Source: Mageeibacillus sp. UBA3708
Lineage (GTDB): Bacteria; Bacillota; Clostridia; Saccharofermentanales; Saccharofermentanaceae
Assembly: GCA_002371375.1 (NCBI GenBank)
Contig: DFIB01000164.1
Span: 1 to 11,506 of the forward strand
Direction of reading: 5' to 3'
Length of the DNA: 11,506 nucleotides
The notes under the pieces were generated by a model. That model worked only from the letters and a program-made list of their open reading frames with translations, did no database searches and was not told where the DNA came from. The translations under genes were made by a program, and so were the position numbers. This document shows, one piece after another, positions 2,775 through 11,506 of this stretch; within the stretch, counting starts at the first letter, position 1, and each line of letters opens with the position of its first letter.

Positions 2775-3716
2775 ATGGGCGAGAAATTCCCCCCTTTTAT
2801 TGGTGAAGATATGAAATCAAAAGTCGATAAGGCTCACATCCTTATCGAAGCTCTTCCCTATATCAAGAAGCTCAGAGGACAGACGATCGTTATCAAGTAC
2901 GGCGGCAATGCCATGATCAACGAAGACCTCAAGCAGTCAGTCATGGATGACATCGTCCTTCTCAAGTATATCGGTATCAACCCGATCCTCGTTCACGGAG
3001 GCGGACCGGATATCAATAATATGCTGTCCAGAGTAAATGTTGAGTCGCACTTCGTGAACGGCCTGAGATACACCGATTCCGACACGATGCAGATCGCACA
3101 GATGGTACTGATCGGCAAAACGAACAAGGAGATAGTAAGCAACCTGTGTGCCAAGGGTGCTAAGGCAATCGGGATCTCCGGCATAGACGGACAGCTCATT
3201 GAAGCTGAGAAGATGACAGTCGATCCCGAAGGTAACCCTGTCGATATCGGATATGTCGGAACGATCAAGAATATCGATACCACGGTATTATCTATGCTGG
3301 CCAACGACGAGTATATTCCCGTCATCGCCCCGATCGGTATGGGAGAGCAGGGCGAGAGTTACAATATCAACGCCGATACTGTCGCATCGGAAGTTGCAGT
3401 AGCGCTTCAGGCGTCCAAACTCATGATACTTACCGATGTGGGCGGCGTCCTCGAGAAGAAGGACGACGGAGAGAACCATATTATCCCCGTCCTTGATGAG
3501 CACGACATCGAAGACTGCATAAACCGCGGTATTATCTCCGGAGGCATGATCCCGAAGATCAACGGGTGCCTCGACACAGTCCGGCGAGGTGTTAACCGCG
3601 CCCACATTATCGACGGACGCATCCCGCACAGCCTCATCCTTGAGATATTCACGGAGAACGGCATAGGAACAATGATCGTAAAAGAAAAGAGGAACAATTA
3701 TGAGTATAGAAAATGA
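2775..3716 (+). CDS. argB: Acetylglutamate kinase
   Basis: ArgB phosphorylates N-acetylglutamate with ATP, the second and usually flux-controlling step. The amino-acid-kinase fold is clear: KYGGNAM at 41-47, the glycine-rich HGGGPDIN at 74-81, GLRYTD at 96-101, and a C-terminal [12 protein letters not shown] segment followed by the usual end of the family. Residues 13-35 form the N-terminal helix ([16 protein letters not shown]) characteristic of hexameric, arginine-inhibited kinases, so feedback inhibition at this step is expected. Three ATGs are possible. ATG 2775 has AGAGG nine bases upstream. ATG 2769 would overlap the argC stop but sits only three bases from that site. ATG 2811, with a weak GGTGAAG, would give the length closest to relatives. 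The first 12 residues are therefore uncertain. The reading frame ends 17 bases inside argD. Confidence 0.95.
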
Positions 3717-4927: not shown

Positions 4928-5866
4928 ATGAAGCATTATATAGATTTTCACGAAGACGTAGGTATTGAAGAATTAGACAAGCTCCTTGATCTTGCCATCG
5001 ACATGAAGGCCAAGACAAAGGCACGCATCCCTCACCACTATCTCGAAGGACAGTCCCTTGCAATGATCTTTACCAAGTCATCCACGAGGACGCGCGTCTC
5101 ATTTGAGGTGGGTATGTACCAGCTGGGCGGTCAGGCCCTCTTCCTCTCAAATCACGATATTCAGATCGGCAGAGGAGAGACGATATACGACACTGCTCAC
5201 GTTCTGTCGGGAATGGTGGACGGTATCATGATAAGAACATTTGCCCACCAGGATATCGTAGATCTGGCAAGATATGGTTCGATTTCTGTCATCAACGGCC
5301 TGTCTGACGACCAGCACCCCACACAGATGCTTGCCGATCTCCTCACCATCAAGGAACACAAGGGCGGTCTTAAGGGCCTGAAGCTCGCATACCTCGGAGA
5401 CGGCAATAACGTTGCCAATTCCCTCCTGCAGGCCTGCGCCAAGGCCGGTATGGATGTGGCAATAGCATCCCCTGCCGACTATACATGCCCCGATAAGTAT
5501 GTGAAACAGGCGCTGAAAGACGCTGAGATAACGGGATCGAAGGTCCTCATGACGACAGACCCCTTCGAGGCGGCAACAGATGCCGATGTCATCTACACCG
5601 ACACATGGACTTCCATGGGTCAGGAAGATGAGAAGGCCAAGAGAGTTCAGATATTCAAGGATTATCAGGTCAACAGCAAGATAATGGGCGTTGCTCACAA
5701 GGATGCAATGTTCCTGCACTGCCTGCCTGCCTACCGCGGATACGAGGTAACTGAGGAGGTTATCGACGGACCGCAGAGCTTTGTTTTCGAGGAGGCAGAG
5801 AACAGACTGCACGCCCATAAGGCGATCCTCGTGAACTGCATGGCAAATATCGATGAGTTCATTTGA
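4928..5866 (+). CDS. argF: Ornithine carbamoyltransferase
   Basis: ArgF joins ornithine and carbamoyl phosphate to give citrulline. The 312 residues contain all signature motifs: the carbamoyl-phosphate loop SSTRTR (51-56), HPTQ (130-133), the ornithine-binding SMG loop (229-231) and HCLPAYRG (264-271, with the catalytic Cys265). Length is typical of an anabolic enzyme. The start ATG follows the argD stop by ten bases, and GAGG in the GTGAGGTAAC around the argD stop codon supplies the ribosome binding site. The SMG loop and ornithine context argue against aspartate or putrescine carbamoyltransferase. Its 3' end overlaps the next gene by 14 bases. argG, argH and the carbamoyl-phosphate synthase genes needed to finish the pathway are not in the window. 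Confidence 0.96.
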   Translation: MKHYIDFHEDVGIEELDKLLDLAIDMKAKTKARIPHHYLEGQSLAMIFTKSSTRTRVSFEVGMYQLGGQALFLSNHDIQIGRGETIYDTAHVLSGMVDGIMIRTFAHQDIVDLARYGSISVINGLSDDQHPTQMLADLLTIKEHKGGLKGLKLAYLGDGNNVANSLLQACAKAGMDVAIASPADYTCPDKYVKQALKDAEITGSKVLMTTDPFEAATDADVIYTDTWTSMGQEDEKAKRVQIFKDYQVNSKIMGVAHKDAMFLHCLPAYRGYEVTEEVIDGPQSFVFEEAENRLHAHKAILVNCMANIDEFI

Positions 5867-6380
5867 GTTCAGAAGAGCCGTACCGGAAGACGCAGAAGCA
5901 CTGTCGCACCTTATCAAGGGTGCGATGGTTACTTATTGCGAGGAATCGGAGATTCCCGAGGATCATCTGGAATCGATGACAGAGGAAGTGTCCACCATAA
6001 AGGACAGGATAGCCAACAACTACTGCCTGTGTTGCTTTGACGGCGATGAGCCGGTAGGAACGATCACACTGTCACTCGTATTTAACCCGCTGAAGTTCAA
6101 TTTCTCGGACAAGACTATGGATTATCTCAAGGACATCGTCATCGCGGGATACATCTCAAGATTTGCCGTAAGACGTGACCTGAGGAGCGGCGGACTGGGA
6201 GTGGATCTCATAAACGCGGCAATCGAACTGGCAGACCGTAAGGGGTGCGATTGCGCACTTCTTCATACGGCAGTAAATAATATGAGAATGGTGGCTTTCT
6301 ATAAGAACCGCGGATTCGAGGTAATTGACAGCGAATCGAGCAGAGGATATCTCAGAGGTCTGCTCGGCAGAAGAATCTGA
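5853..6380 (+). CDS. GNAT-family N-acetyltransferase, last gene of the arginine operon
   Basis: A 175-residue single-domain GNAT protein. The acetyl-CoA pyrophosphate-binding motif A (R/Q-x-x-G-x-G) is visible as RSGGLG at 111-116 after the strand ISRFAVRRDL. Motif B is seen as NNMRMVAFYKNRGFEVI around 142-158. The N-terminal FRRAVPEDAEALSHLI matches the family's opening strand and helix. No signal peptide or membrane segment is seen. The start ATG 5853 lies inside argF and has no clear ribosome binding site, so translation is probably coupled to argF termination. The substrate is not shown by sequence. Its size and position make a short-form N-acetylglutamate synthase (ArgA/NAGS) a reasonable hypothesis; another amine acetylase or a ribosomal-protein-type acetylase is equally compatible with the motifs. 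Confidence 0.85.
   Translation: MSSFEFRRAVPEDAEALSHLIKGAMVTYCEESEIPEDHLESMTEEVSTIKDRIANNYCLCCFDGDEPVGTITLSLVFNPLKFNFSDKTMDYLKDIVIAGYISRFAVRRDLRSGGLGVDLINAAIELADRKGCDCALLHTAVNNMRMVAFYKNRGFEVIDSESSRGYLRGLLGRRI
6337..6366. repeat. 8-bp inverted repeat at the end of the GNAT gene
   Basis: CGAGCAGA (6337-6344) and TCTGCTCG (6359-6366) form a perfect 8-bp stem with a 14-base loop, just inside the 3' end of the acetyltransferase gene. No T-run follows on either strand, so it is not a standard intrinsic terminator. It could slow or protect the ends of the two converging transcripts, or be chance within coding sequence. Confidence 0.35.
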
Positions 6381-9355: not shown

Positions 9356-9628
9356 TTATACTGCTTCCATCGCCTCAGCGGGATGATCGGCAACAAGCCC
9401 TACCCTTACTGTTCTCGTAAGAACATCCACATAACTGAAGCTTACGATCGTAAACTCGCCGGGATTGCGCTCACACTTCACTGTGAAAACATTAGGATAG
9501 CAGTAATCAACTTCTCCGACATATGTGATAATCCTTTTACGTCCGCCATTTGTCTTAAGCACGACTCTTCTGCCTTTGATCTCTTCGAACTTCTTGCGGC
9601 ACAGTTCTATATCAGAGCTGATTATCAT
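9356..9628 (-). CDS. veg: Veg family protein
   Basis: The 90-residue product matches B. subtilis Veg (86 residues) in order and motif: a helical N-terminus, GRRVVLKTNGGRKR at 19-32, YPNVFTVKC at 44-52 and FSYVDVLTRTV at 64-74, corresponding to the LKANGGRRK, YPSVFVIQ and YSYADVLTETV segments. Veg is a small cytoplasmic protein widespread in Bacillota. In B. subtilis it is transcribed very strongly and has been linked to biofilm matrix gene expression; its biochemical activity is not settled. ATG 9628 is preceded by GGGAGGG at good spacing. A near-consensus promoter lies about 110 bases upstream and a terminator follows closely, so it is probably made mostly as a monocistronic message. veg lies near ispE in B. 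subtilis too; here two membrane-protein genes separate them. Confidence 0.93.
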   Translation of the reverse strand: MIISSDIELCRKKFEEIKGRRVVLKTNGGRKRIITYVGEVDYCYPNVFTVKCERNPGEFTIVSFSYVDVLTRTVRVGLVADHPAEAMEAV

Positions 9629-9712: not shown

Positions 9713-9741
9713 AGAATAACAGCATGTCTTTTTTTTGTCAA
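9713..9741 (-). promoter_or_regulatory. Near-consensus sigma-A promoter of veg
   Basis: On the minus strand a perfect -35 TTGACA (9741 to 9736) and TATTCT (9718 to 9713) are separated by exactly 17 bases, beginning with an A-run that follows the -35. The layout resembles the B. subtilis veg promoter, a well-known strong promoter that also starts TTGACAAAAA. Transcription should begin near 9706, giving a leader of about 78 bases. Confidence 0.85.
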
Positions 9742-9748
9742 TTATATG

Positions 9749-9764
9749 CCACAATATATAGTGG
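9749..9764. promoter_or_regulatory. Putative NrdR box 1
   Basis: CCACAATATATAGTGG matches the NrdR box consensus acaCwAtATaTwGtgt at 14 of 16 positions, including every strongly conserved one; only the two outermost bases differ. It is the core of a longer near-palindrome with ATGCCAC and GTGGCAT arms (9746-9767). It lies seven bases upstream of the veg -35. NrdR is the ATP-cone, zinc-ribbon repressor that senses dATP/ATP and controls ribonucleotide reductase genes. Confidence 0.72.
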
Positions 9765-9779
9765 CATTTTGTAAAACTT

Positions 9780-9795
9780 ACACAAAATATAGTGT
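9780..9795. promoter_or_regulatory. Putative NrdR box 2
   Basis: ACACAAAATATAGTGT matches the NrdR consensus at 15 of 16 positions. Its centre is 31 bp from that of box 1, with a 15-bp linker, so the two face the same side of the helix about three turns apart; this is the usual arrangement of functional NrdR sites. It ends 48 bp before the -35 of the rightward promoter. Confidence 0.75.
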
Positions 9796-9843
9796 TTATA
9801 CACAACAAACTGTCCAAGCGCCCATATTACGCCTCACTTTAAG

Positions 9844-9872
9844 TTGAAAAGCCAAAAACTAGTATGTAAAAT
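9844..9872 (+). promoter_or_regulatory. Sigma-A-type promoter of the lipoprotein gene
   Basis: TTGAAA (9844-9849) and TAAAAT (9867-9872) are separated by exactly 17 bases, each five of six to consensus. The predicted start near 9879 lies after the upstream in-frame ATG at 9876, so translation should begin at ATG 9909. The leader contains AAGGGG at 9891-9896 as the ribosome binding site. Confidence 0.72.
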
Positions 9873-9908: not shown

Positions 9909-10538
9909 ATGGATCACAAAAGGACATTGTCTGCTCTACTGTGCCTGACCATGCTGTCCGGCCTTGCATCTTGCAGCAAGACAGAAGAGAGCGGCACATC
10001 CGCCACGGCAGCCACGGTTACTGAGAGCACTGCCTCATCAGAATCTGAGACATCCGGTCCTTCACAGATGTCGGGTTTTGAATACATCAATACCCTCAAG
10101 AGCTTTGAAGTCACATCAAATGACCTGAAGGACGGCGTCTGGTCTGACATAAATGCCAATAAGATCGACGCCAATAAATCTCCTGATCTCAGCTGGGAAG
10201 CCGTGGATGGCGCAGGACTTTATGTCATATTCATGATCGACCCCGATGCAGGCTACTGGCTGCACTGGAAGTCAGATGCCATAACAGAAACATCTCTTGC
10301 CGAGGGACAGGCCACAAGACAGGAATATGTTGGTCCGTACCCTCCCCCTGGATCAACACACACATATGAGGTCTATGTTTTCGCGCTTAAGGCTCCGGTT
10401 GAGAGAGTCAGAGGTCTGCTTAACGGCTCCAATGACAGGATCGAGGAATTCATTCTCGCTCTCGATACGGATGTAAACGGGAAACGCGGCAATATGATCG
10501 CATGCGGCAGATTGTCGGGTACATACACGGAGAAGTAA
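9909..10538 (+). CDS. PEBP/YbhB-family lipoprotein
   Basis: The 209 residues start with a lipoprotein signal peptide: basic MDHKR, a hydrophobic stretch, and the lipobox LASC with the lipid-modified Cys22. A Ser/Thr/Glu-rich linker follows to about residue 55. The rest is a phosphatidylethanolamine-binding-protein (Raf-kinase-inhibitor-like, YbhB/YbcL) domain: SPDLSW at 91-96, DPDA at 111-114, HW at 119-120, and GPYPPPG with a following His at 142-151. Family members share an anion-binding pocket, but bacterial functions are mostly unknown. The protein should be anchored on the outer face of the cytoplasmic membrane. ATG 9909 is chosen because it begins the signal peptide and lies downstream of the predicted transcription start; the spacing of 12 bases to AAGGGG is long but usable. 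fhs follows after 52 bases with no terminator, so the two may share a transcript. Confidence 0.9.
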   Translation: MDHKRTLSALLCLTMLSGLASCSKTEESGTSATAATVTESTASSESETSGPSQMSGFEYINTLKSFEVTSNDLKDGVWSDINANKIDANKSPDLSWEAVDGAGLYVIFMIDPDAGYWLHWKSDAITETSLAEGQATRQEYVGPYPPPGSTHTYEVYVFALKAPVERVRGLLNGSNDRIEEFILALDTDVNGKRGNMIACGRLSGTYTEK

Positions 10539-10590: not shown

Positions 10591-11506
10591 ATGCTCAGTG
10601 ACATCCAGATAGCACAGCAGGCAGAGCTTCAGCCGATTGATACGATCGCAGCAGGACTCGGGCTCAGATCCGAAGATCTTGAACATTACGGCAAGTACAA
10701 GGCCAAGGTAACGGCAGGTGCTGTCAGCAGGGCGGCGAAGCCTGTGGACGGCAAAGTCGTACTCGTGACTGCCATGAACCCCACTCCCGCAGGAGAGGGC
10801 AAGACGACTGTAAGTATCGGACTTGCTCAGGGTCTTGCCAAGCTCGGCAGGAATGTATGTCTGGCACTGAGAGAGCCTTCGCTGGGTCCCGTCTTCGGTG
10901 TAAAGGGCGGTGCCTGCGGCGGCGGATATTCACAGGTAGTCCCCATGGAAGATATCAACCTCCACTTCACCGGAGATCTTCACGCCATTACGGCTGCCAA
11001 TAATCTTCTTGCAGCCATGATCGACAACCACCTGTTCCAGGGCAACGAACTCGAGCTGGATGAGAACAGGATCCTGTGGAAGAGATGCATGGATATGAAT
11101 GACAGAGCACTCCGTCATATCACCGTAGGCGTAGGCGGCGGAACGAGCGGCGTTACGAGAGATGACGCTTTCCAGATAACGGCAGCTTCCGAGATCATGG
11201 CCACCCTCTGCATGGCAAGCGACATGGATGACCTCAAGGAGAGGATCTCCAATATCGTCATCGGATATAACAAGTCAGGCGGACTCGTTACTGCAGGACA
11301 GCTCGGTGCCGTCGGAGCAATGGCTTCACTTCTCAAGGATGCCCTGTCGCCTAACCTGGTTCAGACGATAGAGCATGTTCCCGCCTTTGTTCACGGCGGA
11401 CCTTTCGCGAATATCTCACACGGATGCAACACAGTGATCGCTACGAGAACGGCAATGAAGCTTGCTGACATCGTAATTACAGAAGCCGGATTCGGCGCTG
11501 ACCTCG
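10591..11506 (+). CDS. fhs: Formate-tetrahydrofolate ligase (5' part; C-terminus outside the window)
   Basis: Fhs joins formate to tetrahydrofolate using ATP, giving 10-formyl-tetrahydrofolate for purine synthesis, initiator-tRNA formylation and, through FolD, other one-carbon needs; in acetogens it is part of the Wood-Ljungdahl pathway. The 305 residues visible, of about 556 typical, contain the P-loop TPAGEGKTT at 65-73, [18 protein letters not shown] at 95-112, and the [18 protein letters not shown] segment at 125-142, all hallmarks of the family. ITEAGFGAD at 296-304 is the last conserved stretch before the edge. ATG 10591 has AGGAGG seven bases upstream. No strong promoter is visible in the 52-base gap from the lipoprotein gene. 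The window alone cannot say whether the organism is an acetogen. Confidence 0.96.

Follow-up and report, generated by a model that had tools for sequence, protein, structure and literature searches.

Two NrdR-type boxes stand in tandem upstream of veg in the DNA analysed here, a stretch of 11,506 nucleotides from Mageeibacillus sp. UBA3708 (the window), and the pair recurs at veg throughout its genus and beyond. Judging from sequence comparison, we think it likely that the boxes are a working NrdR operator, that its main target in this lineage is veg, and that bound NrdR lowers veg transcription. The operator type is a known one; what appears to be new is veg as a target of this regulator outside the ribonucleotide reductase (RNR) genes.

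The box pair and its genomic setting

The preliminary description of the window had reported tandem boxes, 31 bp apart, between veg on one side and a PEBP gene followed by fhs on the other. Our scan of the window recovers both boxes, and profile matches bear out the three genes. The features of the region are as follows:

9356..9628, minus strand: veg, 90 aa, VEG family (PF06257, 67.4 bits against a cut-off of 25).
9713..9718, minus strand: predicted veg -10, TATTCT with extended TG (10/12 hexamer matches, TG before the second hexamer).
9735..9762, plus strand: weaker promoter-like site, TTGTCA-16-TATAGT, its -10 inside box 1 (consensus match only).
9736..9741, minus strand: predicted veg -35, TTGACA, with a 7-bp gap to box 1.
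9749..9764, no strand assigned: NrdR box 1 (veg-proximal), CCACAATATATAGTGG, 14/16 to the NrdR consensus.
9780..9795, no strand assigned: NrdR box 2 (veg-distal), ACACAAAATATAGTGT, 15/16 to the NrdR consensus.
9844..9872, plus strand: candidate promoter toward the PEBP gene and fhs, TTGAAA-17-TAAAAT (consensus match only).
9909..10538, plus strand: PEBP-domain gene between the boxes and fhs (PF01161; lipoprotein-like signal by eye).
10591..11505, plus strand: fhs, formate-tetrahydrofolate ligase, cut by the window end (PF01268).

Compared with ACACWATATATWGTGT, which we take to be the NrdR box consensus, box 1 has two mismatches and box 2 has one. Their starts lie 31 bp apart, about three helical turns, with a linker of 15 bp. 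With up to three mismatches allowed, the window holds three NrdR-type matches against 0.12 expected, a number reached in 0/200 shuffles; the third match is box 2 read with a 2-bp shift. A matrix built from the nrdD-operon boxes of 15 genomes of the genus scores the pair at 39.0 bits, although this matrix is only partly independent, its training boxes having been picked with the consensus. No Rfam family was found between 9300 and 10700 at E values up to 0.1. The linker (9765-9779) and its counterparts in relatives frequently carry TTTTG...AAAA (TTTGCACAAAA, TTTTGTCAAAA), a pattern missing from one subclade of the genus.

The predicted veg promoter reads TTGACA-17-TATTCT with an extended TG. 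Both boxes lie outside this core promoter, 7 bp separating box 1 from the -35. The region holds 3 promoter-like sites against 1.8 expected. The first base of the candidate promoter toward the PEBP gene and fhs lies 48 bp past box 2, and likewise in one relative (L331) in which fhs is displaced in the same way; the PEBP reading frame is also present in a near twin of the window (L052).

The assembly that contains the window as contig C82 (2.40 Mb in 245 contigs, 86% complete, 4.5% contamination) has two nrdR genes, on contigs C175 and C223, whose products are 54% identical. Both NrdR proteins exceed the TIGR00244 cut-off of 124.65, at 172.8 and 174.2 bits, and both combine a Zn-ribbon with an ATP-cone (PF22811, PF03477). 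The gene before the C175 copy has ftsZ as its best NCBIfam match, at 264.8 bits against a cut-off of 295.2 (the gene is partial), and the gene before the C223 copy resembles it by eye. Since 135 of the 139 nrdR-positive genomes of the order, presumably Saccharofermentanales, show a single copy, one of the two probably comes from co-binned DNA. Besides the match on C230, extra partial NRDD matches lie on C207 and C22; together with the two nrdR genes they suggest co-binned relatives. As 139 of 142 genomes of the order have nrdR, its presence or absence was uninformative as a test of the boxes.

No RNR gene adjoins the boxes, as had been noted: none of the NRDD matches falls on C82, and PF02867 has no match in the assembly. 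In the 15 genomes of the genus that were searched, no RNR large subunit other than NrdD appeared: NRDD matches occur in 15/15 and PF02867 matches in 0/15. The nrdD gene of the window's assembly, above the cut-offs of the NrdD models, is itself closely preceded by two boxes 32 bp apart (C230:7301 and 7333; GCACAATATGTAGTGG and ACACTATATGTTGTGT), the second of which, in our own reading, fills the spacer of a possible TTCAAT-17-TAGAAT promoter. A 32-bp pair stands at the nrdD operon in all 15 genomes, directly before nrdD in 7 and before nrdG2-nrdD in 8; the gene ahead of nrdD in those 8 encodes about 232 aa, and the one that was profiled is NrdG2 above cut-off. At two of the 15 loci (L073, L083) another pair, 31 bp apart, has a higher consensus score. 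One further observation concerns L083, where a second tandem pair, AAACTATATATAGTAT/ATACTATATATAGTTT, occupies positions 3462-3508 near the nrdG2-nrdD pair of that genome (G021).

Single boxes are not enriched in the assembly, because 32 sites per strand with up to three mismatches (one a shifted duplicate) compare with 38 in a reversed-pattern control. Only two pairs 31 or 32 bp apart occur in it at up to three mismatches per box: the one at veg (C82:9749/9780) and the one at nrdD. The nrdD-trained matrix, run over 1.05 Mb of loci, gave 228 pairs of at least 14 bits, namely 35 at nrdD loci, 191 that, like the veg pair, have TTGAC or TTGAA within 24 bp, and a remaining 2 from veg loci. These 1.05 Mb consist of veg, nrdR, nrdD and fhs loci, many overlapping, so that the scan is a regional check and no census.

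Conservation of the pair and its distance to the veg promoter

For each locus, the 300 bp preceding veg were scanned for the best pair starting 31 or 32 bp apart, and this pair was judged against first-order Markov shuffles. In the genus, sampled by 61 distinct genomes of which two were dropped (one with 4 bases upstream of veg, one whose start was not parsed), the pair is present in 59/59 testable genomes at p up to 0.01. It is found in 23/23 genomes from other genera of the same family (f1), at p up to 0.017, and in a second family (f3) in 16/19 at p<0.01 and 17/19 at p<0.05, both misses belonging to genus g25. Neither a lack of nrdR nor loss of the boxes in close relatives, either of which would have spoken against the operator, is what we observe. 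Beyond these two families the pair is rare: 1/18 loci in family f2, 1/6 in family f4 (that one away from any recognised -35), and, outside the order, 3/69 loci at the level of the class (p up to 0.01), one of them in family f28; the class-level examination left out one weak match (G229) and the second match of G176.

In a named collection of 80 of the 164 relatives, covering Saccharofermentans sp., Mageeibacillus sp., Ruminococcaceae KHP2 and YRB3002 and many rumen, horse-feces and other assemblies, 72 of 80 loci have the pair at p<0.01. The spacing was probed at two widths. With 30-33 bp allowed, 30 or 33 was best in 20 of 65 genus loci (some genomes counted twice), mostly through the 2-bp shifted reading of box 2; with 29-34 bp allowed, 31 or 32 was best in all 25 f1 loci tested. 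Later conservation scans were fixed at 31 or 32 bp.

The boxes vary in quality. Perfect 16/16 boxes occur at veg in three genomes of the genus (L039, L068, L069), and box 2 falls to 9/16 in five others (G012, G060, G054, G046, G014). In a sister genus (g15) and in f3, the middle of box 1 departs from TATA, as in ACACAACTTCTTGTGG. After thinning to below 85% identity, which left 57 of the 73 loci, the mean pairwise identity is 0.71 for box 1 and 0.69 for box 2 (values inflated because the sites were chosen by match), 0.36-0.50 at the linker ends and 0.32 beyond; the predicted veg -35 and -10 reach 0.94 and 0.77. The veg promoters of these loci are near-consensus, with an extended -10.

The pair also keeps its distance to this promoter. 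Among the 73 named loci with p up to 0.02 (the other 7 of the 80 lying above this value), box 1 stands 6 bp from the veg -35 in 34, 7 bp in 34, 5 bp in 2 and 18 bp in 3. The last value equals 7 + 11, about one helical turn more, and the three loci that show it may represent few independent events. In these loci box 1 is between about 67 and 228 bp away from the start of veg. Relative to the predicted transcription start, the boxes lie at about -43 to -58 and -74 to -89. The alpha C-terminal domains of RNA polymerase bind in this upstream region at strong promoters.

Family f28 offers a different geometry. A 14/16 box fills 16 of the 17 bases between the TTGACA and TATAAT of veg in 3/3 genomes with veg in the sample, from two genera; among 350 shuffled regions, 0.3% gave a single box of at least 14/16. 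Such a placement is what one expects of a repressor. A partner box lies 42 bp away, about four turns, in L236, and a weaker one 31 bp away in L235; L237 has no clear partner. Extra 13/16 boxes were also seen in this family: CCACATTATATTGTAT, which L235 and L237 share at -42 relative to the profile match, and a further one in L237, located 120 bp farther upstream than the promoter box.

Target and sign of the proposed regulation

The preliminary description had favoured control of fhs, and through it of one-carbon supply, with veg or a relocated nrd gene as alternatives. An operator meant mainly for fhs, with veg a bystander, now seems improbable to us. In 58/80 named loci (by start motif) a divergent fhs does begin no more than about 1 kb from box 2, and since members of both f1 and f3 show it, this arrangement is probably the older one. 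Seventeen genomes of the genus, however, lack an adjacent divergent fhs at veg (neither the window's genome nor its near twin, in both of which the PEBP gene lies between, is among them). There fhs has no match in 6, of which five are at least 90% complete, consists of partial genes without upstream DNA in 2, and is separated in 9, placed elsewhere or turned to the same direction as veg. The veg pair is kept in 17/17 of these genomes at p up to 0.01 (five with box 2 at 9/16), and none of the 9 separated fhs genes has a pair in its 300 bp upstream (p 0.27 to 1.0). The predicted fhs -35 also lies at scattered distances from box 2 across 53 loci, except for 20 at 61-63 bp. Because the pair stays at veg in all 17 and is absent from all nine separated fhs genes, veg is, by this comparison, its constant partner and fhs is not, which turns the balance from one-carbon supply as the main function in the genus to the control of veg. 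Shared control of fhs is possible where that gene is still divergent. Toward fhs, TGGTATAAT abuts box 1 in eight named loci (L300, L301, L302, L307, L316, L319, L322 and L332); the TATAAT that this places next to the box is a point for fhs, as it would act as an extended -10 with box 1 in the spacer of an fhs promoter.

The gene ispE was considered as sole target and rejected: it follows veg within 2.4 kb in 42/80 named loci and does not in 33, 5 being too short, a count that rests on a crude motif. In L012, Nudix and HPr genes follow veg instead of ispE.

For veg as the main target, we suggest the following course of events. When dATP is plentiful, NrdR in its ATP plus dATP form would occupy the pair as a tetramer, and would therefore be expected on both the nrdD operon and veg. 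Bound NrdR would cover the region where the alpha C-terminal domains of RNA polymerase would dock, and the near-consensus veg promoter would fire more weakly. As dATP falls, NrdR would let go, and nrdD and veg would rise together. For veg we infer the binding of NrdR, the repressing sign and the polymerase contact alike.

Lying outside the predicted veg core promoter, the boxes do not fix the sign by their position. We favour repression because of that near-consensus core promoter, the f28 geometry and the precedent of Streptococcus pneumoniae nrdHEF, whose boxes lie upstream of the -35. The converse, NrdR bound upstream as an activator of veg that touches RNA polymerase, with veg and nrdD responding oppositely to dATP, strikes us as unlikely. 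A factor in contact with polymerase would be well served by the constant spacing between box 1 and the veg -35, whose two settings (5-7 and 18 bp) differ by about one turn, and Pseudomonas aeruginosa NrdR is reported to raise topA, according to PMC4409342. But a near-consensus promoter with an extended -10 fits a repressor better and hardly needs an activator, and the f28 boxes lie inside the core promoter. PMC12051234, moreover, terms the topA mechanism questionable and calls NrdR a repressor at S. pneumoniae nrdHEF, where -35 and -10 are downstream of the boxes.

The identity of the regulator could also be doubted: another protein with a similar palindrome might control veg, the resemblance to NrdR boxes being convergent. 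The drifting centre of box 1 in g15 and f3 would agree with this, and nrdR is too widespread in the order for its presence to discriminate. Still, we hold this to be improbable, given the 16/16 boxes at veg in three genomes, the 31- or 32-bp pairing that NrdR needs, and the detection of the veg boxes by a matrix from the nrdD operon. The presence of nrdR, the like pair at the nrdD operon and the conservation of the pair at veg all point to NrdR boxes. That they are left over from an nrd gene now elsewhere, or arose by chance, agrees with the missing RNR neighbour and is otherwise very hard to sustain: both boxes, their spacing and the distance to the -35 are conserved in two families.

A wider proposal is more speculative, and we put it forward as a possibility that may well prove wrong: an order-wide dATP switch with two targets, the nrdD operon and veg, contacting polymerase from a helix-phased site, tying an RNA-associated protein to dNTP supply, and with repeated origins, one in f1/f3 and another in f28, that differ in promoter geometry.

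Relation to known NrdR operators and to Veg

As described in PMC12051234, NrdR with ATP alone does not bind, and ATP plus dATP yields tetramers on two boxes; binding is strongest with spacers of 15-17 bp, and NrdR is presented as apparently RNR-specific. By its sequence, the veg site passes as an NrdR operator and differs in its target and in its position relative to the promoter. Like the operators of RNR operons, it comprises two 16-bp palindromes separated by 15-16 bp, and the same sites stand at the nrdD operon of the genus; those operators lie over the core promoter, though not universally, as S. pneumoniae nrdHEF shows, whereas here the constant neighbour is veg and both boxes are upstream of the predicted -35. 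The usual NrdR regulon consists of RNR genes and the gene here is veg, but an RNR target belongs to the definition of the regulon and not to binding.

Two systems come closest. At S. pneumoniae nrdHEF, according to PMC12051234, -35 and -10 are both downstream of the boxes as at veg, although the target is an RNR and the spacers are 24 and 26 bp. In L236 of f28 the two boxes at veg start 42 bp apart, which is comparable. The topA gene of P. aeruginosa is, like veg here, a proposed non-RNR target of NrdR, discussed and also questioned in PMC12051234. There, according to PMC4409342, a single box is involved and the reported activation is disputed, in contrast to a full pair in many species here. 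A conserved pair whose spacing to the promoter of another gene is fixed would make a clean non-RNR target. Among the literature matches listed we found no paper linking NrdR to veg; RegPrecise and subscription papers were outside the scope of this search.

PMC8307031 describes Bacillus subtilis Veg, of the same protein family, as constitutively expressed, and reports that loss of veg rescues the growth of a cspB cspD mutant, that Veg is mRNA-associated in Clostridioides difficile, and that its precise function is unidentified. If our reading is true, Veg gains a physiological input, the dATP status, and dNTP supply would be linked to an RNA-associated protein. Among the gut and sediment bacteria of this group, an NrdR switch beside veg would reach beyond the textbook RNR target. 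The isolate-like records KHP2 and YRB3002 carry the pair (L313, L325), so that the claim is probably open to direct test.

The window's Veg differs from that of B. subtilis in falling under the cut-off of the NCBIfam Veg equivalog NF046033 (59.9 against 135 bits). In addition, the Veg proteins of the order share three invariant cysteines in 11/11 aligned sequences (positions 10, 43 and 52 of the first), possibly metal or redox related.

Elsewhere in the window, an argF-like gene is preceded by argC, identified by profile, and by genes that look like argB and argD; no argJ was recognised by eye. Its end is overlapped by a gene for a 175-aa GNAT acetyltransferase (5853-6380), which might supply N-acetylglutamate.
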